19,407 bases of DNA from Nitrospinota bacterium (GCA_016212295.1 JACRGO010000075.1:1-19407); one strand, 5' to 3'. Counted from the first letter of the stretch, positions 403-12,575 are shown. Program-made: numbers and translations. The notes: generated by a model not told the origin, from the sequence alone.

Positions 403-1914
403 CTAATAAACATTCACGTCAAGCGACCTTCTGGGAAGGCTCAGCCGCGTGAAATAATCTATATAATTGTACCCGCTCCCGGTAAAGGGACGCCAGACAA
501 GCTCGCTCTTACGCACCTTGATCCTGAGGTCTGAGTAAAAATTCATGGCCTGCGGATCGACCCTCCCGATCAGGGAACAAACCAGCGGATAAAGCATATC
601 CACCGCCTCTTCCGGCGGCAGGGACACATTCATCACCTTCAGGCGCAAAAAGTCGGGGCTGCCGGACGCCGGGGGCGCTTCCTTCTGCATCCTGGAAATA
701 TTGGCCGCGAACTTCAATAAAGCGCCCGCGTTCCGCGAAACCAGGGCAGGAACAAACAGTCTCAAGCCCACGGCAGGGTCCCTGTCTCTCAGAATCATTT
801 CCCCCATTTTCATGAATCCGGCAAGGCCGCCCACGCTGTCCATGGCCACCCCGGCCTTTTCCGATTCAAGCGCCACGTCAAAGGCCCACATTGGAATATA
901 CAAAATATTCCGGTTGCTTCCCGCGTCCAGCACGTTCAGCTTCACGCCCAGGTAGCCGTCCCCCTTCAAAAGCCACAACCTGCAACAGTTTCCGCAGAAA
1001 TAGATGATATCAAAATCGCGCGGCGCCAGATCATGTCCGCAGTTTTTGCAGCGATGCGTGAGCAGGCGAATTCGATACTGGGCCGCGGCTTCCGGCGTTT
1101 TTTCCCCTGAAATAACACTTGCGCCGTCCGTTTCCTCCAGCAGGGCCCTGCTGACGCCGTCCAGCAGAAAACCGCTGTATTCCTCCGGTCCCTTGCAGAT
1201 AACGTTAATCACCGGGTAATAAATGATGAAAAATTTTTCCCCGGCCATGTAGACCCTGGAAAACGCCTCAGGGGTTTTCATACGCAGGTCCGTTTTTTCC
1301 TGAACAGGCTCAATAAAATCCAGCTCAGAATTCCAAAGCGATATCCTTTTCTTGCGAGGGGCGTCCGACTTTACCGCCAGGGAAGCATCCATCTCAGTGT
1401 TTCTTTGAGCGAGGCCGGCGGCCGTATTCCGGGCCGACTCCCGGTCAACGGTCAACGGCAAAAAGACGCCGCTGTCCTTGTACTCCTCGCTGTCATAGGG
1501 TTTGAGGGTCAGCGCCTCGGTTTTGACGCCCAGCGTTGAGAGCGCCGGAGCAAAACCGTTATTGGCCTCGAAGCTATGGGACCACGTCTTCCCTATCACG
1601 TCCGTCTTGCCGTTATTGGCGAAGACCCGGTAGATCATCCCTTTGAAATACCAGAAGGGTTTGTAGACAACGGTTATTCTTTTAATTACCGGGAGTTTTT
1701 TGACTCCCTTTTGCAGGAGTATTTTTTTCGTCGCGAGCGCGATATCCCGTTGGCCGAGGCTGGAAGTGATGATGTATTTAAGGTCCCTGGCCCCGGCTTC
1801 AGTGCGGAGTACGGACCCGCAGTAGGCGCATTTAAAGGTGTAGGTCCCCTCCGGATAGCGCAACGGAGCGCCGCACTCCGGGCATTTTATGGAGACTATA
1901 AAAGGATTATGCAT
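403..1914 (-). CDS. Double zinc-ribbon protein of unknown function
   Basis: This 503-residue protein has no obvious membrane segment. It starts with a zinc ribbon (C11-P-E-C14 paired with C29-A-Y-C32) and carries a second one in the middle (C289-K-N-C292 with C307-G-N-C310). Each ribbon is followed by a beta-rich segment containing an aromatic Y-x-P-[FM]-W motif (YKPFW near residue 85, YIPMW near 341), so the protein looks internally duplicated. No enzymatic motif is visible. The N-terminal ribbon resembles those of B. subtilis YdjG/YdjH-like proteins and of the SPFH protein upstream. The gene lies downstream of the CHAT-STAND gene on the same strand, but the 178-bp gap contains a strong palindrome and repeats, so co-transcription is uncertain. 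No Shine-Dalgarno precedes the ATG; the start is chosen because the first ribbon begins at residue 11. Confidence 0.8.
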   Translation of the reverse strand: MHNPFIVSIKCPECGAPLRYPEGTYTFKCAYCGSVLRTEAGARDLKYIITSSLGQRDIALATKKILLQKGVKKLPVIKRITVVYKPFWYFKGMIYRVFANNGKTDVIGKTWSHSFEANNGFAPALSTLGVKTEALTLKPYDSEEYKDSGVFLPLTVDRESARNTAAGLAQRNTEMDASLAVKSDAPRKKRISLWNSELDFIEPVQEKTDLRMKTPEAFSRVYMAGEKFFIIYYPVINVICKGPEEYSGFLLDGVSRALLEETDGASVISGEKTPEAAAQYRIRLLTHRCKNCGHDLAPRDFDIIYFCGNCCRLWLLKGDGYLGVKLNVLDAGSNRNILYIPMWAFDVALESEKAGVAMDSVGGLAGFMKMGEMILRDRDPAVGLRLFVPALVSRNAGALLKFAANISRMQKEAPPASGSPDFLRLKVMNVSLPPEEAVDMLYPLVCSLIGRVDPQAMNFYSDLRIKVRKSELVWRPFTGSGYNYIDYFTRLSLPRRSLDVNVY

Positions 1915-1929
1915 AGCGGGACGAAGGCT

Positions 1930-2039
1930 AATGAACCGCGGAGACGCAGAGGCGCGGAGATTTTTATAAAAGGCTTACAGTTGTAAGGGCACGACGTATC
2001 GTGCCCTTACCTTTCTCAGCGTCTTTGCGCCTCTGCGGT
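1930..2039. repeat. Inverted pair of GC-rich dispersed repeats
   Basis: The word family CCGCGGAGACGCAGAGGCGC (about 1933-1957) recurs in opposite orientation at 2015-2039 (GCGTCTTTGCGCCTCTGCGG). The two copies are imperfect and bracket the 28-bp palindrome at 1983-2010. Another copy lies at 6181-6205. These look like short dispersed intergenic repeats, and the arrangement would fold into a long interrupted hairpin between the CHAT-STAND and zinc-ribbon genes. Confidence 0.65.
1983..2010. repeat. Perfect 12-bp-arm palindrome (REP-like hairpin)
   Basis: GTAAGGGCACGA (1983-1994) and TCGTGCCCTTAC (1999-2010) are exact reverse complements around the 4-base centre CGTA. It lies 82 bp past the stop of the CHAT-STAND gene in the direction of transcription. 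No run of T follows on either strand, so it is not a textbook intrinsic terminator. It could still block exonucleases or attenuate read-through into the zinc-ribbon gene. It resembles REP-type palindromes. Confidence 0.75.
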
Positions 2040-2070
2040 AAAAATATTTTTAAAATCCTAAATCTATAAT
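2019..2070 (+). repeat. Composite direct repeat, left copy
   Basis: This segment reads GCGTCT...GCGGT, then an A/T tract, then AAAATCC-AAATCT. The same ordered parts in the same orientation occur at 6181-6241. Together the two copies bracket the three genes for the 3-TM protein, the proline peptide and the CHAT-STAND protein. The match is imperfect and includes a small length difference in the A/T tract. Confidence 0.55.
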
Positions 2071-2092
2071 AATAGAAAAAATAACTATACTA

Positions 2093-5000
2093 TCATTTCT
2101 GTTTACTGAAAACCGCTGAAGGCGGGGCAACGCCGGGGGCGATCCGTTGGTAGATTTCCGTGAATTTTTTATGGCCCAGCTTGGCTTCCAACTCCATTAA
2201 GTGCCCGGCAATTTCTTCCATAAATAGTTGATGTTTTCCATTCACTATGTCCTGCCATAGTCCGGTTGAAATTTCCATTGCTTTTTCAAATTTGCTTTGA
2301 AGGAAATAGATTCTGGCTTCCATAGCTAATACATGAATCGGCACGCCGCTCTTCGCATCTGGGAGTTCTTTTAATTCCTCCAATAAACTCAGGGCTTCCT
2401 CAAATTCACCACGAATCATTCTGCGGGTAGCAACATTTAGGAACAGGCGAGGCTTCATCCCAGCACTCGTTTTTTCATAAGGAATTTCATTTAATATTAT
2501 ATTCTCATATTTCCTGCATTCTTCAACGTTTTCCAAATTTTGTTCGCAGATAGCCAATGAATCCAAATCCGATAAAATACCCATATAAAATTGTTTTTTC
2601 TTATTATGCGACAGGCTGATAAGGCTAATTTCTTTTTTCTTGTTCCAGTTTTTTGTTCTACTGTAATACGCTCCAAAAAATTTTAACGCATCGTTAAAAT
2701 AGGAAGTATCTTCATTGTCAGGGGATTGGATCCAGTCCCTCCAATATTGAACGGTCCGGAGTATTACTGTAGTATCACTGGCTCCTTTTACGTCAATAGC
2801 ATTTTTCGCTGCAAGTAACCATGCCTTCGCGAAATCGGGCGGCAGGGGAGACGGCAGATGGGAGATATCCAAATCCTGGATTAATCTTGAGCACATCTCA
2901 TAAAGCCAGTCCGCTATGCCAAGGCTTTGTAGAATCAGCCCAAAACGCGGTACTGTCCTGGAAAAAATATTGTATTCCTTTTGGTGCCATAGGTGCTCCA
3001 GGTATCCCCTCCAGCGCGTCTGATTTTGGCCAACCCTGGGGAGCAGAGGGGATTGAGCGTTTTTCATAAAATAATTACATAATATAGCTAACTCTTCACA
3101 ATAGATTTTGCTCAGACAAAGCCCTATTTGGTCTCTTTTTTCCTCAGTCCAGCCCAATTCCTTTCGTTTCGCGGCAAGATACTGAGGGCCAGCAGGATGG
3201 ACCTCCCATCCTAAGGGTTGGCGGACATAGAATCCCGCCTTCTCCCCTGCTTTAAAGACCTCTTCCATGTATTCCGGTTTTGGAACGTTCAGGGCCTCGA
3301 AGAACTCTCTGGACCAATCGGCTTCCTCTTCTTCCTTCGTATCAAAGGCCACAGGCAGGGCATCCGTTATAAAACCTTTAAGGTCCGCCAAGGCACAAAA
3401 GATTGGACGCCATTCCTGCGGCAGCCTCTTCCACCCGAACTCGAACAGGGCGAACATGGAATCCGCCTGGAGGACCGAACCCCCCTTTGCCTGGGAATCC
3501 ATTTCCCTGCCAAACTCCTCCAGAATTTCCTTGGCGGAACATTCCCTCAGCCGGGGCAGGAGTTTTTGGGTGAGATAAGGATGCCCTTCCAGGTAGTCCA
3601 GAAGTTTTATATGTTCCTGGTCCCCCTCCTTTTCCTCCAATCCGCTCTCCTTCAGGACCACGGCCCCGAATTCGCGCCTCTCCTGGTCCGTTAGCCCTTT
3701 CACGTCCACATAATAAACATCGTCATTGGGTATCCACTCCTCCCTCCCCCTGGAGCCGATGAGGACCCGCGTCCTTCCCCTGCCGGCCTCCCGGAGGAAT
3801 TCCAGGAGTCCAGTCCGTTCCTTATCCGCGAGAGAACCCTCGGTCCCGCCCAGCCCCGTAACCGTTTCAAAATTGTCCAGGACCAGCAGAAATCTTTGAT
3901 GAAGTAATTTATCCATGGTGGACCTTATGCCGGCGCCATCTCCGTCCAGGGTCCTGCCTATGAGTTGGACGATCCGGTCCTTGTCCCATGCCTCGGACTC
4001 GTAATTGAAGTAGAACGCCTTTTCCGCCCCAAGGCTGGCAACGTACCAGGAAGCGAATTGGTGAGACAGGTGGGTCTTGCCGATCCCGGCGTATCCGTGG
4101 GCCAGGGCTATCCTTCCTTTCCGGAAGGCGGACTCAATGGCGTGGAACTCCCGGTCCCTGCCGAAAAATCCCCTGGCCTCCAGCAGCTCATCACGGAAAG
4201 AAATCAGATTTTTTCTGACCTCTCCATAGGCGTTCGTCTTTATCAAGGGCAGAGTTTCCTGCTTGTCCGAAAAAGCCCGTATGTCCCGGAGTCCGTAATG
4301 GACCGGCACGGGCCAGTCGTGGAATTCCAACTCCCTGGAGGTGAGGACCGATTTCCGGTCCGCGAGCTTCATGGCTTGGCGGGACTCCACCACGGCCCTG
4401 GCCAGGGACTTTCCCTCCGCTATATTGGCGTAAACGGATTCAAAACATTCCGAGGTTGTAAAGGTATATGAGGTCCATGTCATGGCCACGACCCCCTTGA
4501 TCCCGCCGTGGATAAGTCCGGTGGCCATGGCTGCCTGGAGAGATTCGGAATGATGGGAGTTTTCCATGGCCGCTCCCCGGCAGCTATCCAGGAAAACCAT
4601 TTCCACCCCTTGGCCGCCTGCCAGTTGCGCCAGGGACTCGGTATCGCGGCAGTCGGTCTTTCCTGAATCGTCTTCAAAGGCCAGGACCCCAAGGGCGGGG
4701 CCTTCTTCTTGAGATTGCAGGTCTCCGTGCCCGTCAAAGTGGAGGATATGGACGGGTTTAACTTCGTTGTTGAGCCTTTTTCGCAGGGCCTCCCATGTTG
4801 GGGGACGCAATACCTCGATCTCTACCGAGCGTTCAAATTCCAGCAATTTCTGAAAGACGCCCCTGGCAGTGGCCCGGAAAGGAAGGTTGGAAAGGTCAGA
4901 GGGCCGGGAAATAACCATCAGGACGCGCAAGGGATTTTCCTTGCCAAGCTGGAGTTGGGTCTCAGGCTTGAACTTTTCAGGGAGGGAGCGGACAAATCCA

Positions 5001-5422
5001 GAACAGGAGGTGGAAAGACACTGGTCTCTTTCAGGCAAGAGAAGGATTTCCCAGGGTTCCTGAAAAAATTCGGGACGGGTGGATTCCAGAGTGACAAGGA
5101 CGTTTTGAAGCTTGAGCCGGTCCAGTTTTTCCAGGATGACGTCGCGAACGCGGCCTTCCCCGAAAAGTCTTTGCCCCATTTCTTTCCCGAATTTCTTGAT
5201 ATCGCTTGCCGCCTTTTTTGCCCTTTCGATATTTTTCCCGTACGGGTGCAGGAGATACTCCTCGAAATACCATTGAAGTTCCTTGCGGAAGTCATCGGTA
5301 ATGGGGGAGGGATAATATTTGACCGGATAGGCGAAGGTGTCGTCTCCAGACACCAAGCGGATTTCCACCTCGCCGGATTCGCCGTTTTTCTCAGGCTTAT
5401 CGATCAAGCTTAGTTTCACCAT
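2093..5422 (-). CDS. CHAT protease - STAND/NB-ARC-like ATPase - TPR protein
   Basis: A 1109-residue multidomain protein. Residues about 90-380 form a CHAT domain, a caspase-like cysteine protease fold. The catalytic histidine is H232 in HFDGHG and the catalytic cysteine is C281 in LDSCRGA; both are intact. A STAND-type P-loop ATPase follows: Walker A GYAGIGKT at 443-450, Walker B LLVLD ending at D516, and a sensor-like RVLIGSR at 552-558. The C-terminal third is helical and includes TPR-like pairs near residues 985-1075, the usual ligand-sensing part in such proteins. In known STAND and TPR-CHAT proteins, ligand binding triggers oligomerisation and protease activation; applying this here is inference. 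The gene starts 13 bp after the proline-peptide stop with no good Shine-Dalgarno, suggesting translational coupling. The segment coding the C-terminal region is strikingly A/T-rich. Its substrate is unknown; immunity and programmed cell death are plausible roles, unproven. Confidence 0.93.
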   Translation of the reverse strand: MVKLSLIDKPEKNGESGEVEIRLVSGDDTFAYPVKYYPSPITDDFRKELQWYFEEYLLHPYGKNIERAKKAASDIKKFGKEMGQRLFGEGRVRDVILEKLDRLKLQNVLVTLESTRPEFFQEPWEILLLPERDQCLSTSCSGFVRSLPEKFKPETQLQLGKENPLRVLMVISRPSDLSNLPFRATARGVFQKLLEFERSVEIEVLRPPTWEALRKRLNNEVKPVHILHFDGHGDLQSQEEGPALGVLAFEDDSGKTDCRDTESLAQLAGGQGVEMVFLDSCRGAAMENSHHSESLQAAMATGLIHGGIKGVVAMTWTSYTFTTSECFESVYANIAEGKSLARAVVESRQAMKLADRKSVLTSRELEFHDWPVPVHYGLRDIRAFSDKQETLPLIKTNAYGEVRKNLISFRDELLEARGFFGRDREFHAIESAFRKGRIALAHGYAGIGKTHLSHQFASWYVASLGAEKAFYFNYESEAWDKDRIVQLIGRTLDGDGAGIRSTMDKLLHQRFLLVLDNFETVTGLGGTEGSLADKERTGLLEFLREAGRGRTRVLIGSRGREEWIPNDDVYYVDVKGLTDQERREFGAVVLKESGLEEKEGDQEHIKLLDYLEGHPYLTQKLLPRLRECSAKEILEEFGREMDSQAKGGSVLQADSMFALFEFGWKRLPQEWRPIFCALADLKGFITDALPVAFDTKEEEEADWSREFFEALNVPKPEYMEEVFKAGEKAGFYVRQPLGWEVHPAGPQYLAAKRKELGWTEEKRDQIGLCLSKIYCEELAILCNYFMKNAQSPLLPRVGQNQTRWRGYLEHLWHQKEYNIFSRTVPRFGLILQSLGIADWLYEMCSRLIQDLDISHLPSPLPPDFAKAWLLAAKNAIDVKGASDTTVILRTVQYWRDWIQSPDNEDTSYFNDALKFFGAYYSRTKNWNKKKEISLISLSHNKKKQFYMGILSDLDSLAICEQNLENVEECRKYENIILNEIPYEKTSAGMKPRLFLNVATRRMIRGEFEEALSLLEELKELPDAKSGVPIHVLAMEARIYFLQSKFEKAMEISTGLWQDIVNGKHQLFMEEIAGHLMELEAKLGHKKFTEIYQRIAPGVAPPSAVFSKQK

Positions 5423-5435
5423 GATTTATGGACGC

Positions 5436-5549
5436 TCACTTTTTGGGAGTAGGCGTTTTGGGTTCGACGCTTCCTTTGACGCTTCGCGGCGGCGGAGGGG
5501 GTGGCGGAGGGGGTGGCGGAGGGGGCGGAGTTGCCGGTTTCTTTTTCAT
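5436..5549 (-). CDS. 37-residue poly-proline peptide (small unlisted gene)
   Basis: Reading the minus strand from the ATG at 5549-5547 gives MKKKPAT, then 14 consecutive prolines, then RSVKGSVEPKTPTPKK and TGA at 5438-5436. An AAAGGA element lies 8 bases before the start. The gene fits between the 3-TM gene (25 bp upstream) and the CHAT-STAND gene (13 bp downstream) on the same strand. The peptide is strongly basic and would be extended (polyproline II). Long proline runs stall ribosomes unless EF-P acts, so it could be a leader controlling CHAT-STAND translation or a proline-rich adaptor. Both ideas are inference. The proline tract is encoded by a near-tandem CCX repeat that could vary in length by slippage. 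It could also be non-coding. Confidence 0.5.
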   Translation of the reverse strand: MKKKPATPPPPPPPPPPPPPPRSVKGSVEPKTPTPKK

Positions 5550-5574
5550 GTTTTTTTCCTTTATTAAAATTGTT

Positions 5575-6162
5575 TCATTTTTTTATTGTAACAGGTTTTG
5601 TTATTTCCACCTTTTGGACCCCTGAGCCGAAGGATTTGTCCATGCGGAAAAAATAGTATGGCAAAAAGGTTAAAAAGGTAAGTATCATGGCCACTGTCAG
5701 GGAAACCGTGGTCCTGTATATATTATACGATCTGGCGTCGTTATTTATCGTGTTGACCGAAGAAAATTCCACATAATAATTGTAAAGGGAATCCTTCAGA
5801 CCCTTTTCCACCAGTTCCCCGGAATTTTCATAATCCTTGTAAAAATCCACCAATTGATTCCGGTATTCCTCAATGGTTTTCGCCGTGGGAAGGAGTTTGT
5901 CCGTTGGCCCGAACCATGATTTCCTGAAAAAATATAAGGCGCAACCAATGGCCGTTAAAGCGGCCAGGTAGAAAATCCAGAAAATCATGGAAGGGCCTCC
6001 GCCTATGTCCGGGTTTTTGTTTTGAAGCATGTATCCCAGGAAGCCGGACAAGGCCAGCAGCGCCGCTATAGGAAGTTGCAGGCGCGAGTTGAGCTTTTCG
6101 CGCATATCGATCTCATGGAAATATTGGCGCTCGTAAAGTTTAAAGAGTTCCTCTCTGTTCAT
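5575..6162 (-). CDS. Three-TM membrane protein of unknown function
   Basis: This 195-residue protein has a short charged N-terminal helix (1-28), two closely spaced hydrophobic segments (about 29-47 and 59-79), a soluble helical stretch of some 70 residues rich in Y, D and E, and a third hydrophobic segment (about 152-172), ending in a basic tail. No signal peptide or catalytic motif is visible. The layout resembles small SLATT-like membrane effectors that accompany sensor proteins in conflict systems, but I do not recognise the family. A Shine-Dalgarno AAAGGAA precedes the ATG by about 10 bases. It sits in a leftward string between the SPFH gene and the proline-peptide and CHAT-STAND genes, and may be the membrane target, anchor or effector of the CHAT protein. 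That role is inference. Confidence 0.8.
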   Translation of the reverse strand: MNREELFKLYERQYFHEIDMREKLNSRLQLPIAALLALSGFLGYMLQNKNPDIGGGPSMIFWIFYLAALTAIGCALYFFRKSWFGPTDKLLPTAKTIEEYRNQLVDFYKDYENSGELVEKGLKDSLYNYYVEFSSVNTINNDARSYNIYRTTVSLTVAMILTFLTFLPYYFFRMDKSFGSGVQKVEITKPVTIKK

Positions 6163-6180
6163 TGCTATTTTTTCCTTTGT

Positions 6181-6241
6181 GCGTCTCCGCGAACTCCGCG
6201 GTGAAAAAATTTTTTAATTTTTAAAATCCCAAATCTGAAAT
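6181..6241 (+). repeat. Composite direct repeat, right copy
   Basis: It matches the order of parts at 2019-2070: GCGTCT...CCGCGGT, an A/T tract, then AAAATCCCAAATCTGAAAT. The terminal word is iterated further (ATCCCAAATCTGAA units up to about 6262). It occupies the gap between the SPFH gene and the 3-TM gene. The GC part also contains a small CCGCG/CGCGG stem. Confidence 0.55.
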
Positions 6242-6266
6242 CCCAAATCTGAAATCTGAAATTTTA

Positions 6267-7445
6267 TTAGTTCGCCTTTTCCCCGCAATGCGGGCAGAAC
6301 TTCGTTCCAGTGGGCAGGCTTTTGTTGCAGCTTTTGCAAGCCGTCTTTGTGTCCAGCTTGAAACCGCAATTCATGCAAAACCTGGCGTGCGTCGGGAGAA
6401 CCTTTGAGCATTGGGGACAGATGTTTTGCACCACCATCTGATGGCCGCACTTGTAGCAGAACCTGCTGCTCTCAGGGGTGAAGGAAAGGCATTCCGGACA
6501 TTTCACGGTCGGGATTTGCTCCGTCCCTAAATCCTTTTGCCCGGGCATGAATGCCTTATTAAGATAGCCGGGCATCAACATGCCTACGCCCAATCCCATG
6601 CCGAGCCCTGCCCCCATTTGTACGCCTGAGGCCACGCTGCTACCATCGCCGCCCGTGCCCGGGGCGGCCATGGCGTTCTCCGCGTTCCTGGTTCCCCCCT
6701 GCCGGTCCATAGCCCTTGCGAGTTTCAGCTTCAGGAAATCGTCTATGTTCTTGACTGCCTCCATGCCGCTCCGGGCGTCTATCATTTGCTGAACGTCCTC
6801 CGGCACGGAAATGGAGGAGACGTAAAAGGATTCCAGAGACATGCCGTGTTTAACGAAATCATTGCGCAGCCTCTCATGGAGCGCCTCTGATATCTCATCA
6901 AAGCTCTTCGGCAGATTGAGGAAGGTGTCCAGCCGCTCGCCTAACACGTCGCTGACGCGGCAGAGGATGATGTCACGCAGGTAGTCCTCTATGTCCGACG
7001 TCTGGTACTTCGCCGCCCTGCCCACAATCTGGTTTATGAACGCCACTGGATGGTCTATCCTGCAGCTATACACCCCGAAAACGCGGAGCCGCGCCATGCC
7101 GAGGTCCTTGTCCTTGAACGCTATCGGCTCCCTAGTGCCCCATTTGAGGTCAATGAAGGTCTTGTGGTTTATGAAATAGACCTCGGCCGTGAATATTGTC
7201 TCGAAGGCCCACGGCAGGGAGAAAAGCTTGGTGATGATGGGGATGTTGAAGGTGGCCAGGGTGTGCCTGCCAGGACCAAAGGTGTCGCACGCCTTTCCGT
7301 CGCGGTAAAACACGGCGGTCTGAGTGTCCCTCACTATAAGTTGCGCGCCGAGCTTGATGTCCGCCGAGCCTTCCGGCGGGAACCTGTGGATCATCTCGTC
7401 CGGCGGCGGATCAGGCCATTCAATGACTTCGAGTAAAATGCCCAT
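6267..7445 (-). CDS. SPFH-domain protein with three C-terminal zinc ribbons (YdjI-like)
   Basis: A 392-residue protein. Residues about 1-250 match the SPFH/band-7 'virion core protein' type represented by B. subtilis YdjI. Then come a glycine/methionine-rich hydrophobic stretch (274-292) and three consecutive zinc ribbons: C316/C319/C330/C333, C343/C346/C357/C360 and C370/C373/C384/C387. SPFH proteins assemble on membranes and organise microdomains, and YdjI recruits a PspA homologue in Bacillus. Those facts are known for the family only. A strong Shine-Dalgarno (GGAGGAG) precedes the ATG. The gene heads a leftward string leading to the 3-TM, proline-peptide and CHAT-STAND genes, and diverges from the AIM24-family gene. 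No separate signal peptide is seen; association with the inner face of the cytoplasmic membrane is inferred. Confidence 0.92.
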
Positions 7446-7527
7446 GAGTCTCCTCCTCTATATTATTACGCTCAGAAATTTGCGTTGTCCGCGCAGATTT
7501 TTCAACCGCTGCTTGGAATGCCCACAA

Positions 7528-7556
7528 AGTTTAGCAAAACGTGTATCTATAATCAA
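7528..7556 (-). promoter_or_regulatory. Candidate sigma70-like promoter for the SPFH gene string
   Basis: On the minus strand TTGATT (7556-7551) is followed after 17 bases by TAAACT (7533-7528). Each hexamer matches 4 of 6 consensus positions. The start of the SPFH gene lies about 83 bp downstream. In an A/T-rich gap such matches can occur by chance. Confidence 0.33.
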
Positions 7557-7592
7557 AAAAACTAATCGCATATAATCTTCTTGAAATCTTTC

Positions 7593-7621
7593 TTGACTGT
7601 TTTCGCGTGGAGTGTTAAAAA
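7593..7621 (+). promoter_or_regulatory. Candidate sigma70-like promoter for the AIM24-family gene
   Basis: TTGACT (7593-7598), a 17-base spacer, then TAAAAA (7616-7621), about 66 bp before the ATG at 7688. The -35 matches 5 of 6 consensus bases and the -10 matches 4 of 6. Seen in sequence only. Confidence 0.4.
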
Positions 7622-7687
7622 GGTTAGGATTCATCACCGCCAAGGCGCGAAGTGCACGGGCCAAATCTTTATTGAGGGGAGCTTAAA

Positions 7688-8476
7688 ATGCAATGCCATG
7701 AAGTGGACTACAAACTTATCGGGGACGACATGCAGATCGTGGAGGTGGAGCTTGATCCCGGAGAGACCGTCATCGCCGAGGCAGGGGCCATGAATTACAT
7801 GGAGCAAGGCATAAGCTTTGAGGCTAAAATGGGGGACGGGTCCAATCCGGACCAGGGCGTTTTCGGAAAACTCCTCAGCGTGGGCAAGCGGGCCCTCACA
7901 GGAGAATCCATCTTCATGACTCATTTCACCAACAACGGCCCCGGCAGGCAGGCCGTCGCCTTCGCCGCCCCTTATCCAGGAAAAATTATCCCAGTGGATA
8001 TGTCAAAAATTCACGGGGAACTTCTTTGCCAAAAGGACGCCTTCCTGTGCGCGGCCCTGGGGACCAAGGTGGATATCGCTTTCAACCGGAAACTCGGCGT
8101 GGGATTCTTCGGCGGGGAGGGATTCATCCTCCAACGCCTTCGCGGCGACGGCATGGCCTTCATCCATGTGGGCGGCACTGTGATTAAAAAAGAGCTAAGG
8201 GGGGAGACCCTGCGAGTGGACACGGGGTGCCTGGCCGCCCTCACCTCCGGGATTCATTACGATATCCAACGCTCTGGGAGCCTGAAGTCGATGTTCTTCG
8301 GCGGCGAAGGCATCTTCCTCGCCACCCTCGCCGGCACGGGAACGGTCTACCTGCAAAGCCTCCCGTTTTCCAGACTTGCTGACCGCATCCTGGCCCACGC
8401 CCCCAGCGCCGGAGGGACACGGAAAGGGGAAGGGTCGGCGCTGGGCGCACTGGGAAACATGATAGACGGGGATTGA
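7688..8476 (+). CDS. AIM24/TIGR00266 family protein
   Basis: This 262-residue protein has the glycine-rich, beta-strand pattern of the TIGR00266/AIM24 family. It includes an early [16 protein letters not shown]-type segment (about 24-39), repeated FFGGEG motifs (about 139-145 and again near 203), and a flexible Gly/Ser-rich C-terminus. The eukaryotic member AIM24 is mitochondrial and linked to membrane organisation; the bacterial members have no firm biochemical role. No signal peptide or membrane segment is visible. A good Shine-Dalgarno (GAGGGGAG, 6 bases from ATG) supports the start. It is divergently transcribed from the SPFH/zinc-ribbon gene. Genes of these two families often occur together, which suggests a shared membrane-associated function (inference). 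Confidence 0.92.
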
Positions 8477-8585: not shown

Positions 8586-8733
8586 AGCCAAAAATATTTG
8601 ACATTTTAAAAAAAGGCGCAATGTTTTTTCACGGTCGGGGATATTTACTCGCCTATTCCGAAAATTTATCTCTTTTTTGCCATGAAACGTTTTACTTTTT
8701 GCCGCCTTTTTGAAATTTCAAATATTTTTGGCT
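8586..8733. repeat. Inverted repeat A (arms 8586-8618 and 8703-8733)
   Basis: The left arm begins AGCCAAAAATATTTGA, and the reverse complement of the right arm begins with the same 16 bases. Both arms then have a variable A/T stretch and end in AAAAGGCG. The arms are 84 bases apart, with the left arm of repeat B lying between them. Confidence 0.75.
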
Positions 8734-8789
8734 CATTGCCGGGAAATGAAATGCGCGAGATAGATTTTCGGAATAGGCGAGTAAATATC
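8640..8789. repeat. Inverted repeat B (arms 8640-8672 and 8757-8789)
   Basis: Thirty-two of 33 positions are complementary. The single mismatch would be a U-G wobble in RNA. The core is ATTTACTCGCCTATTCCG. The right arm ends 2 bp before the ATG of the GGDEF-PilZ gene. The right arm of repeat A lies between the two B arms, so A and B interleave. Confidence 0.85.
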
Positions 8790-8791
8790 TA

Positions 8792-9964
8792 ATGGACCCA
8801 ATAAGAAACGCAATAATACGCTGCCTGAACAAGTGCCATGACGACGAGCCGGCCCTCCTGGAGGAAATCGAGCAACTGAGAAAGGCGGAGGGAGATAAAG
8901 TCTTTCAGGGCCTCCTCAGCGTGTTGACCCATTTTGAATTCGAGGCCAGCGACGCCAAGGAAAAATGGCGGAAAATCATTTCCTACCGGAAGGAGATGGA
9001 AGCCATGCTGGGCCGGACAGTGAATCTTGCCACCGCTGCCTGCGACTACTTCAGCACGATCCAAAAAGACCTCCACAATCCGAAGATCGTTGAGATAAGC
9101 ATATTCGAGGAGACCGCGAAGCTGGCCCATTATGACTCCTTGACCGAGCTTTTCAATCGGCGCTATTTCGACTCCGCCCTGTCCAGGGAGATGAGCCGGT
9201 CCAAACGTTACGACTTCGATTTATCCGTGATATTCTTCGATCTCGATGACTTCAAGGCGCTGAACGATTCCTTCGGGCATCAGGTGGGTGACCTGGCTTT
9301 AAAGAACGTAGCCAAGGAGATCATGAAACAAACGCGGGTCGAGGACACGGCGGCGCGGTACGGAGGGGAGGAAATAGTCATGGTCCTTCCCCAGACTCAT
9401 AAGGAGAAGGCATTTTTCGTGGGCGACCGCATCCGGAAAAACATTGAGGAAATGACCCTTGAGCATGGGGGAATCCCCATCAAGATAACCCTCAGCGGCG
9501 GGGTGGCCTCCTTTCCCATCGACTCCATGAGCGCCCAGGGTCTGGTGGAATGCGCTGACAGGGGCCTTTACCAGGCCAAAAACCAGGGGAAGAACAATGT
9601 CGCCCTCTATTCCTCCGAAAAGCGGCGGTTTCCGCGCATTGACTTTTCCGGCCAGATCAATGCCTTTCTCCTGTCGGAACCAGGCAAGAACTTTACAGGC
9701 AAGGCGAAGAACATAAGCATGATGGGACTGCTCTTTGAAAGCGTGGAATCCATGGAAATCGGCGAGGAACTCCGGCTAGACGTCCCGATCCCGCCCCATA
9801 ACAACCGGCTTCCGATAACGGGCCGGGTGGCGCGCGTCATTCCTTCCAGCCATTCCTTTGATATAGGGGTCTCCTTCATCAAAATGGCGGACAGGCAAAG
9901 TAATGATCTGGCCCTCCGTGACTTCGGAAAATACCTTGGGTCGCAATTCCAGTCAACGGTTTAG
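8792..9964 (+). CDS. GGDEF-PilZ diguanylate cyclase
   Basis: A 390-residue soluble protein predicted to make cyclic di-GMP from two GTP. An N-terminal helical region (1-110) has no recognised sensor motif. The GGDEF domain follows (about 112-275), with the active-site loop GGEEI at 191-195 and an RxxD inhibitory site (R182-V-E-D185) five residues before it; both look functional. A C-terminal PilZ domain (about 277-378) has the c-di-GMP-binding R278-x3-R282 and N307-x-S309-x2-G312 motifs. So one protein can make c-di-GMP and bind it, allowing feedback or output in the same chain. No receiver domain or membrane anchor is visible. The start follows directly on inverted repeat B, which could control its translation. 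The gene is convergent with the radical SAM gene, 40 bp apart. Confidence 0.95.
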   Translation: MDPIRNAIIRCLNKCHDDEPALLEEIEQLRKAEGDKVFQGLLSVLTHFEFEASDAKEKWRKIISYRKEMEAMLGRTVNLATAACDYFSTIQKDLHNPKIVEISIFEETAKLAHYDSLTELFNRRYFDSALSREMSRSKRYDFDLSVIFFDLDDFKALNDSFGHQVGDLALKNVAKEIMKQTRVEDTAARYGGEEIVMVLPQTHKEKAFFVGDRIRKNIEEMTLEHGGIPIKITLSGGVASFPIDSMSAQGLVECADRGLYQAKNQGKNNVALYSSEKRRFPRIDFSGQINAFLLSEPGKNFTGKAKNISMMGLLFESVESMEIGEELRLDVPIPPHNNRLPITGRVARVIPSSHSFDIGVSFIKMADRQSNDLALRDFGKYLGSQFQSTV

Positions 9965-10004: not shown

Positions 10005-12575
10005 TTATTGCCTGAAATAAGCCTCTGTCTTCACCACGCCGATTTCCAATTCTTCCAGCTCATCCGGCCCCACAAGCTTCCTCAGCACATCCAGCGGCTG
10101 CACTTGCTTGGAGTCAACCACAGCCAATGTGACCGACAGCCTGAAGCCTTCATCCGTAAAATCCATGACCTTCAGTTTTTTTATAAAGGGAGAGAGATTG
10201 ATTGTCTGGGGCTTGCCTTTTCTTATGCGCTCAAGAATAATTTCCCGCGCCCCCAAAATTCCCTCAACGGCCTTTTCAAGGTCCTCCCTGGCGCCGAATA
10301 TCTTTTCTCCCTTTCCATTAAAATTGACGCTGACCTCGTAATCCACCCGCTCCAGGGAATTTGAAAGGGACGCCGCCGCTGGAAGCAGGCGCTGGACTGT
10401 CAGCGCCTTTAACCCCTCCGGCAGGGCCTGGTTGATCCCTTGCATAAAATCATCCGCCTCCAGGGGCTTGTTGAACTGGATGTCGGCGTATTCGGCATAA
10501 CTTTCCACTCCAAGGGAAAGGGCAGAGGCGTAGGCGATCTTGGGGTGCGGGTGAAAACCCTCGGAATAGGCAAGCGGAACCCCCATCCTCAGACAGGCCC
10601 TGTGCAGAACCAGGTTCAGGTCCAGGTGAGAGATGTATTTCATGTCTCCTGTCTTCTTGAAGCGCATTCTCACCGCAACCGGCAGGGAGCTGAAACCTGA
10701 GTCCCGCGCCGCGCCGGTGGAAGCCTGCTCCCCGGTCCACGGCAAAGGGGCCACCACTTTTTTGCACGTGGATTCCAATCCGCAGAGGTGGCATTTCCCG
10801 TAGCGGCAGTCCTCTGTTAAAGCCTCCTCCATGGACCTCCGGTATTCCTTTTTCAGATACTCCTCCGATACCCCGGTTTGGATATGGGACCAGGGCAGCT
10901 TTTCCTCCAGGGGAATTTGCCTGTGCGCGTAAAAGGAAGGGGCCACTCCAAGTTCCCCAAACGCCTTCTCCCACAGATCGAAACGAAAACGCTCCCCCCA
11001 CCCGTCGAACCCGCACCCCAGTTCAAAGGCCCTTTCCACCACCGCGCCAAGACGTCTGTCTCCTTTTGCGAAAACACCCTCAAGCAGGCTTGCTTCCGGG
11101 CTCGGCCTCTTCAGGCTGAATTCCCTCCTGTTCCTGAAAAGAGACCACAAGAGGCCCATCTTTTCCTTCAATACTTCCAGGGGGTCCTGGGGCGTCCATT
11201 GAAAGGGCGTGTGGGACTTGGGCACGAAGTATCCGACGCCAAGATTAATCCCCTTTATCCTGCTTCCCTTTTTATTGACGATCTTCAGGACCCGCAGGCA
11301 GAATTTGTGAATCTCGCGTATGTCCTCCATTGTCTCCGTTGGCAGGCCGACCATGAAATAAAATTTGAGCCTCTCCCATCCGAGGCCGGTCAGGTCGGAC
11401 ACGGTGCGCATCACGTCGTCCTCCGAGATGTTCTTGTTGATCACCTTCCGCAGCCTTTCCGTTCCGGCCTCCACGGACACTGTAAATCCTGTTTTCCTGA
11501 CAGACCTTATGGCCTCCATCAACTCCCGGCTGATAGCGCCCGGACGCAGTGAAGGGAAGGACATCGAGGTCCTTCGCTCCTGGTATTTCGCGATCAGATA
11601 CGGCCCAAGCTCCTGGATGCAGGAAAAATCCCCTGAGCTCAGGGAAAGGAGGGAAAACTCCTCGTATCCGGTGGATGAAAGCGATTTGTCCAGAAGTTCC
11701 TCTATTTTTTTCCAGGAGCGCTCCCTCACCGGACGGTAGATGATCCCTGCCTGGCAAAAGCGGCATCCCTGCGTGCAGCCCCTGTCGATCTCCAGGGAAA
11801 GACGGTTATGCACCAATTGCGTGAATGGAATGGGCGGCCTGGTTGGGTAGTCAACTCCATTAAGGTCCCTTACAAAACGTTTCCGGACAAAAGGTTTTTC
11901 CGGAAATTGTGGAACTATGTCCAGGATGGAACCGTCAGCGTGATAAGCAGGATGGAAGAAGGAGGGGACGTAAACGCCGTCCAACTCCGAAAGCGCTTTA
12001 AGGGTCCTGTCCCTTTTCCATCTCTCTTCCCTGGCGGAGGCCAGCAGAGCGGCGATTTCAACCATTACCTCCTCTCCGTCTCCCACGACAAACAGATCAA
12101 AAAATCGGGCCAGGGGTTCCGGATTAAAGGCGCATGGACCTCCGCCGATGATAATGGGGTCATCTTCTCCCCTCTCCGCTGAATGGAGCGGTATCTTACC
12201 GAGGCGCAACATAAAAAGAATATTGGAATAAGACAACTCGTACTGAAGGGTGAAACCCACAGCGTCAAAGCGGTTCAGCGGAGTCCTTGTTTCAAGCGAC
12301 GCCAGGGGAAGTCCCCTTTTTTCAAGCTCCGCGGCGTAATCCATGTCCGGGGCGTAGACCCTCTCGGCCGCTACTCCCTCCCTGGCGTTCAGAATGTGGT
12401 AGAGAATGCCAAGACCCAGGTGGGCCATTCCGACTTCATATAAATCCGGAAAGGCGAGGGCGATGCGCGCCTTGACGTCTTTTTCTTCTTTTCGGACCGA
12501 ATTGACCTCGGAGCCGAGATACTGCGCGGGTTTCAACACCCGCATGAGGATTTGCTCGTAACTGTTTTTTTTCAT
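10005..12575 (-). CDS. B12-binding-like radical SAM protein fused to DUF2344
   Basis: An 856-residue protein matching the TIGR03960 (radical SAM) plus TIGR03936/DUF2344 fusion. The N-terminal 170 residues look like a cobalamin-binding-type fold (IIIGGGPCAFNPEP at 141-154). The radical SAM cluster is C267-x3-C271-x2-C274, within RGCTQGCRFCQAG. A linker carries four more cysteines (C590, C595, C598, C604) that could bind metal or a second cluster. DUF2344 begins near residue 632. The family is widespread in bacteria and its reaction is unsettled; in some genomes the two halves are separate genes, often near Rne/Rng-type ribonuclease or ribosomal protein genes. The start is supported by AAGGAAC just before the ATG. 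It is transcribed away from the DsrH/GT87 pair's repeat-containing gap and ends opposite the GGDEF-PilZ gene. Confidence 0.94.
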   Translation of the reverse strand: MKKNSYEQILMRVLKPAQYLGSEVNSVRKEEKDVKARIALAFPDLYEVGMAHLGLGILYHILNAREGVAAERVYAPDMDYAAELEKRGLPLASLETRTPLNRFDAVGFTLQYELSYSNILFMLRLGKIPLHSAERGEDDPIIIGGGPCAFNPEPLARFFDLFVVGDGEEVMVEIAALLASAREERWKRDRTLKALSELDGVYVPSFFHPAYHADGSILDIVPQFPEKPFVRKRFVRDLNGVDYPTRPPIPFTQLVHNRLSLEIDRGCTQGCRFCQAGIIYRPVRERSWKKIEELLDKSLSSTGYEEFSLLSLSSGDFSCIQELGPYLIAKYQERRTSMSFPSLRPGAISRELMEAIRSVRKTGFTVSVEAGTERLRKVINKNISEDDVMRTVSDLTGLGWERLKFYFMVGLPTETMEDIREIHKFCLRVLKIVNKKGSRIKGINLGVGYFVPKSHTPFQWTPQDPLEVLKEKMGLLWSLFRNRREFSLKRPSPEASLLEGVFAKGDRRLGAVVERAFELGCGFDGWGERFRFDLWEKAFGELGVAPSFYAHRQIPLEEKLPWSHIQTGVSEEYLKKEYRRSMEEALTEDCRYGKCHLCGLESTCKKVVAPLPWTGEQASTGAARDSGFSSLPVAVRMRFKKTGDMKYISHLDLNLVLHRACLRMGVPLAYSEGFHPHPKIAYASALSLGVESYAEYADIQFNKPLEADDFMQGINQALPEGLKALTVQRLLPAAASLSNSLERVDYEVSVNFNGKGEKIFGAREDLEKAVEGILGAREIILERIRKGKPQTINLSPFIKKLKVMDFTDEGFRLSVTLAVVDSKQVQPLDVLRKLVGPDELEELEIGVVKTEAYFRQ

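Follow-up and report, generated by a model that had tools for sequence, protein, structure and literature searches.

A mobile pair of a three-helix membrane protein and a proline-run micro-protein, found beside a CHAT-STAND protease in a Nitrospinota contig, as a candidate anti-phage module

Does a compact string of genes that runs from a putative membrane sensor to a caspase-like protease form a single system, or does it bring together units of separate origin? The window, i.e., the whole stretch of DNA analysed here, is an entire 19.4-kb Nitrospinota contig (19,407 nucleotides) from a metagenome-type assembly of 3.74 Mb in 237 contigs. The original prediction had described a leftward gene string with a divergent AIM24-family gene, and every gene was found in its place. 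The minus strand carries an SPFH (Band_7_1) protein with zinc ribbons (6267..7445), a 195-aa protein with three transmembrane helices (3TM; 5575..6162), a 37-aa poly-proline micro-protein (5436..5549), a 1109-aa CHAT protease fused to a P-loop (STAND-like) ATPase and a putative TPR region (2093..5422), and a zinc-ribbon protein of the TF_Zn_Ribbon type (ZnR503; 403..1914), while the AIM24-family gene (7688..8476; AIM24 E-value 1e-70) lies on the plus strand. Ordinary neighbour genes (gyrB, flavoprotein, His-phosphatase, GGDEF) were set aside. Two overlapping long inverted repeats, of 33 nt (97%) and 27 nt (93%), were also observed at 8586-8789, directly upstream of a GGDEF-PilZ gene at 8792.

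The poly-proline peptide had been given no role in the original prediction, yet it proved to be the most conserved partner of the 3TM protein. A scan of genome contigs with the single 3TM sequence returned no relatives, and an alignment query was needed to reach them. At the 3TM loci, a short proline-run ORF adjoins the 3TM gene on the same strand, usually overlapping it or lying within a few tens of bases, and follows the motif P(5–14)-x-R-x-[V/I]-[K/R]-[G/D]. This strict motif was detected beside 3TM in 35 of 42 loci, whereas only 7 of 1996 background tiles cut from this DNA contained it, and a looser rule placed a peptide beside 3TM in 54 of 61 loci. The window peptide (MKKKPATPPPPPPPPPPPPPPRSVKGSVEPKTPTPKK) contains P14-RSVKGSV, and its counterpart in the closest relative (L090), whose 3TM protein is 49% identical, reads P10-RSVRGSV. 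Judged from these neighbourhoods, the 3TM protein and the poly-proline peptide are a conserved pair. Annotation pipelines miss the second gene because it is so short, and no description of the pair was found in the databases searched or in the part of the literature that was covered.

The 3TM protein belongs to a single catalogued family. Compared with PHROGs v4, it matched phrog_36961 (E-value 1.2e-12), and window, plasmid, and phage 3TM proteins all match this family with E-values of 1e-4 to 1e-15. No Pfam family was found above its cut-off, the nearest being 8xMP (PF24838; E-value 0.05, with a score of 13.8 bits where 30 are required), nor was any NCBIfam family or, at an E-value of 0.1, any PADLOC 2023 anti-phage model; for the pair as a whole, phrog_36961 was the only relative, with none in Pfam, NCBIfam, PADLOC, or PDB. 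Across an alignment of 38 homologues, residues Y14, F15, E17, and R27 are invariant, and Y10, E11, N137, and N141 nearly so. An AlphaFold2 model (mean pLDDT 90) predicts three membrane-length helices, TM1 (29-47), TM2 (56-84), and TM3, the last being the end of a 58-residue helix; an N-terminal helix precedes TM1 and a short helix follows TM2. A Foldseek search against PDB and viral models gave no match to this fold at an E-value of 0.001. VIA Z values reached at most 10.8, against generic helical bundles, and 9.6 for NINJ1, values of the size to be expected between helical proteins that are unrelated, the guide value for this class being Z 13. Charge counts suggest an N-in, C-out topology with a periplasmic C-terminal tail. 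Several 3TM proteins end in a fused second poly-proline copy (P9-x-RQIREGVEIV), often preceded by an internal Met and a Shine-Dalgarno-like stretch, and AlphaFold predicts this tail to be disordered (pLDDT < 50). By the charge-based topology the fused tail would be periplasmic, whereas the free peptide has no signal peptide, which is awkward for the model proposed below.

The protease next to the pair is of an already known kind, and its gene starts 13 bp after the poly-proline stop codon, on the same strand. The catalytic residues H232 and C281 of the CHAT domain (Pfam E-value 3e-14, above cut-off) are intact and the P-loop lysine K449 is present within GYAGIGKT, exactly as first claimed. Matches of the P-loop region to AAA_16, NACHT, and nSTAND1 were all below the curated Pfam cut-offs. 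The TPR assignment is putative, being based on the appearance of the helices at the C-terminus and on how relatives in Nostoc are annotated, and no Pfam match to TPR was detected at an E-value of 0.1. The protein had no sequence match among solved structure chains at an E-value of 0.1.

While the window is the one case of a CHAT gene beside the pair, caspase-fold proteases adjoin it elsewhere. A caspase gene directly precedes the 3TM and poly-proline genes in L110, L220, L222, L227, and L236, and is itself preceded by a TIR gene in L110, L220, and L222 (based on Pfam) and in L227 (based on near-identical sequence). A Campylobacterota contig (L118) has the order 3TM, poly-proline peptide, TIR, caspase, with gaps of −4 to 11 bp. 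Since the caspases of L118 and L227 are 63% identical but their 3TM proteins only 28%, with the genes in opposite order, these two pairings arose separately. Caspase-fold proteases have thus been linked to the pair independently on at least three occasions: CHAT in the window, and TIR-caspase genes in two orders, before the pair in P2-like phages and after it in Campylobacterota. Caspase was dropped as a dedicated partner of 3TM, as it belongs to the TIR-caspase (type IV Thoeris-like) gene pair; the independent Campylobacterota operon partly restores the link between protease and 3TM. The originally predicted connection between the CHAT protease and the 3TM protein is in this way indirectly supported, since these three or more operons, each assembled independently, combine the pair with a clan-CD protease, while the proposed SPFH/AIM24 sensing part is not. 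Two details of these loci may be recorded separately: L220, L222, L227, and L236 are phage contigs with type IV Thoeris-like TIR-caspase genes, and positions 322-4274 of L118, from a Campylobacterota MAG, hold six tightly packed genes, for an HTH/Csa3-like protein of 357 aa, a 256-aa protein, 3TM, the poly-proline peptide, a ThsB-type TIR protein, and a caspase.

The same survey, however, leaves real room for two separate defence genes, with a self-sufficient 3TM-peptide pair and an unrelated NLR-like CHAT-STAND gene that landed alongside without functional coupling. Most copies of the pair have no adjoining protease and most phage TIR-caspase loci were found without 3TM, so that protease coupling is either optional or mere clustering of defence genes, and the pair was also absent next to relatives of the CHAT-STAND gene carried by plasmids of cyanobacteria, acidobacteria, and actinobacteria. 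Against this stand the 13-bp spacing on one strand in the window and the three independently assembled operons in which protease, 3TM, and peptide genes are separated by small gaps. We consider the absence of coupling a serious possibility, if short of an even one.

The distribution of the pair is broad and patchy. 3TM was identified in ~60 loci from Proteobacteria in the wide sense, Campylobacterota, plasmids, and P2-like and other prophages, with relatives drawn from plasmids, IMG/VR phages, 33 named genome contigs, and a Pseudomonadaceae sample. It occurs in 11 of 348 Pseudomonadaceae genomes and in 1 of 186 and 2 of 155 genomes of two other classes; none was found in sequenced phage records, and no similar DNA was detected in E. 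coli. In P2-like prophages the pair occupies two cargo sites, one between tail-completion and baseplate genes (L077, L078) and one beside a gpD-like tail gene (seen in L227, and judged from gene layout in L217, L218, L229, L230, and L220). It lies after an integrase in P. quercus as well as on plasmids of P. syringae, and some copies on plasmids and chromosomes have no visible phage genes nearby. Besides TIR and caspase, its immediate neighbours include NERD (L113, L111), a type IIG restriction-methylase (L106), an AbiJ/PDC-S32 protein (L107), and a weak STAND-like protein (L096). These defence-gene neighbours, along with mobility and patchy occurrence, point to an anti-phage role by guilt by association, and the pair is probably an unrecognised bacterial immunity module. 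Separately, in a Candidatus Electrothrix locus (L097, 923-4621) 170 bp separate the pair from a homologue (40% over 856 aa) of a radical-SAM/DUF2344 gene that also occurs in the window, at 10005-12575; this shared neighbour is perhaps due to chance.

A small membrane protein with a small partner, carried by prophages beside tail and baseplate genes, could also serve the phage itself, through superinfection exclusion or a holin/antiholin-like control of lysis in P2-like phages. Phage biology of this kind is unlikely to explain the pair, as it is also found on plasmids and on chromosomes without visible phage genes, occupies two different cargo sites rather than a lysis cassette, and adjoins restriction, Thoeris-like, NERD, and CHAT genes.

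The peptide itself raises a further alternative. Runs of 8-14 prolines are strong ribosome stall signals, and the poly-proline ORF overlaps or abuts adjoining genes, as would be expected if it were a translational sensor in which EF-P-dependent stalling controls the coupled gene while the peptide has no role of its own. To gain insight into selection on the peptide, we compared 15 copies from phages and Pseudomonas, which were picked by a pattern demanding at least eight prolines. In all 15 the run is exactly eight residues long and is followed by T-R-x-V-R. Pairwise codon differences over P8-T-R-x-V-R amounted to 915 synonymous and 85 non-synonymous changes, compared with a random expectation of 208 and 708; the pairs are non-independent, and the direction of the bias is clear, indicating strong purifying selection on the peptide, octaproline length included. 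Motif conservation beside 3TM, codon bias, and fused copies together indicate that the peptide is a real, selected micro-protein. Conservation between phyla and purifying selection extend to the residues after the proline run (R-x-V-R-G-D-V), and the motif also occurs as a fusion to 3TM, which makes the translational sensor very improbable. A peptide of 37 residues whose proline run is under selection would be an unusual and readily testable interaction element.

The remaining genes of the string belong to the host operon. The SPFH protein (Band_7_1 E-value 2e-61) lies outside the mobile block, and ZnR503, in which no transmembrane segment is predicted, has two CxxC..CxxC sets and a best Pfam match to the TFIIB zinc-binding family (PF08271; E-value 1e-4, below the family cut-off). 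We searched the SPFH family across 291 genomes and examined the neighbourhoods of 28 strong, distant SPFH loci, 10 of which have a ZnR503-like gene nearby on the same strand; in most of these it is the next gene downstream, at a distance of −4 to 84 bp. Likewise, the pspA-ydjGHI operon of B. subtilis encodes both an SPFH protein, YdjI, and a protein of the Pfam TF_Zn_Ribbon family, YdjG, which act with PspA in membrane stress (PMC8581546, PMC9239133). Based on this recurrence and precedent, SPFH and ZnR503 are a YdjI/YdjG-like pair of an already known kind. In three genomes that are unrelated to one another (L051, L052, L053), the SPFH-ZnR gene is also immediately preceded by a recurring gene of 167-182 aa.

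Between the SPFH and ZnR503 genes of the window sits the 4-kb 3TM-peptide-CHAT block, and fragments of an intergenic repeat that is dispersed through the genome (CGCGGAGACGCAGAG... / ...AAATCCCAAATCTGAAATCTG) are present at both of its edges. The edge at 6163-6266 consists of this repeat and, used as a query, has 44 matches on many contigs of its own genome (G000), while the edge at 1915-2092 contains pieces of it, with 19 of 20 bases identical between 2046-2065 and 6217-6236. Repeat pieces at both edges make insertion by recombination plausible, and the block is most likely an insertion into an older SPFH-ZnR membrane-stress operon. SPFH-ZnR503 neighbours without the block were seen in distant genomes only: in the sole same-genus genome compared (G001, 99% complete), the 3TM, CHAT, SPFH, and ZnR503 genes are all absent. 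The SPFH-ZnR unit and the 3TM-peptide-CHAT block are two units, not one. The original prediction, in which SPFH and AIM24 detect damage to the membrane and thereby activate the CHAT-STAND protease, drew on the placement of all genes within one 8-kb stretch, mostly on one strand, and on the membrane-stress role of YdjI-type SPFH proteins with PspA (PMC8581546), but it is highly improbable, as the neighbour count that it had itself proposed for 3TM and SPFH homologues found no SPFH or AIM24 in any of ~60 3TM loci and no CHAT, 3TM, or AIM24 in any of the 28 SPFH loci (AIM24 and SPFH thus being associated in the window only), and as the block junctions are repeat-flanked.

We are left with a mobile anti-phage membrane module, composed of 3TM and the poly-proline peptide and partnered in the window by a CHAT-STAND protease, a function that we infer and to which we would give about even chances. 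The two members of the pair would function together, most likely as a membrane effector against phages. 3TM would sit in the inner membrane, with its N-terminal helix (Y10, E11, Y14, F15, E17, R27) and middle helix (N137, N141) on the cytoplasmic side, and the peptide may bind it through a polyproline helix and the R-x-V-K/R-G anchor, silencing it or setting its oligomeric state. Upon infection, 3TM would damage or depolarise the membrane and so halt phage growth. For the version in the window, sensing of infection would fall to the STAND part, which would release the CHAT protease, and this protease may then cleave or otherwise act on 3TM or the peptide; at other loci a TIR-activated caspase would replace CHAT-STAND, or the pair would work alone. 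A more specific reading, which we advance tentatively, is that of an undescribed immune module in which a three-helix membrane effector is controlled by an octaproline micro-protein (P8-x-R-x-V-R-G), carried on prophages and plasmids, and enlisted several times over by caspase-fold protease systems to serve as their membrane arm. The caspase-like proteases of bacteria are believed to set off cell death, and the executor is not settled for most CHAT and TIR-caspase systems. A 3TM protein with a proline micro-protein, recruited at least three times beside such proteases, would be a candidate executor of their response.

Compared with known systems, the novelty appears to lie in the pair of 3TM and poly-proline micro-protein, the SPFH-ZnR and CHAT-STAND parts being of known kinds. 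The one catalogued family, phrog_36961, carries no function, and the poly-proline partner matches no PHROG. Type IV Thoeris reportedly pairs a TIR protein and a protease of the caspase-like kind (Rousset et al. 2025, as cited in PMC12799240). Type IV Thoeris-like loci resemble the window in having a caspase-fold protease operonic with 3TM and the peptide (L110, L118, L220, L222, L227, L236), and TIR and caspase genes occur together in L110, L220, L222, and L118. The window differs in that its protease is a CHAT-STAND fusion, with no TIR among its ten main proteins, and most TIR-caspase loci lack both 3TM and the peptide. In Craspase (type III-E), the TPR-CHAT protein Csx29 is likewise a CHAT protease thought to act by cleaving a partner (PMC10028731, PMC9729208), whereas the window has neither gRAMP nor any CRISPR part. 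With B. subtilis pspA-ydjGHI the window shares a Band_7_1 SPFH-zinc-ribbon protein (YdjI-like) and the adjoining TF_Zn_Ribbon protein (YdjG-like), YdjG's Pfam family being that of ZnR503's best match; unlike that operon, it has no YdjH and no PspA among its ten main proteins, ZnR503 lacks a predicted transmembrane segment, and the 3TM-peptide-CHAT block separates the two genes. A parallel in logic is offered by the recurrently acquired nuclease-protease pairs (PMC12799240), in which a small gene pair is also repeatedly taken up by unrelated immune systems, although here the pair consists of a membrane protein and a proline peptide.
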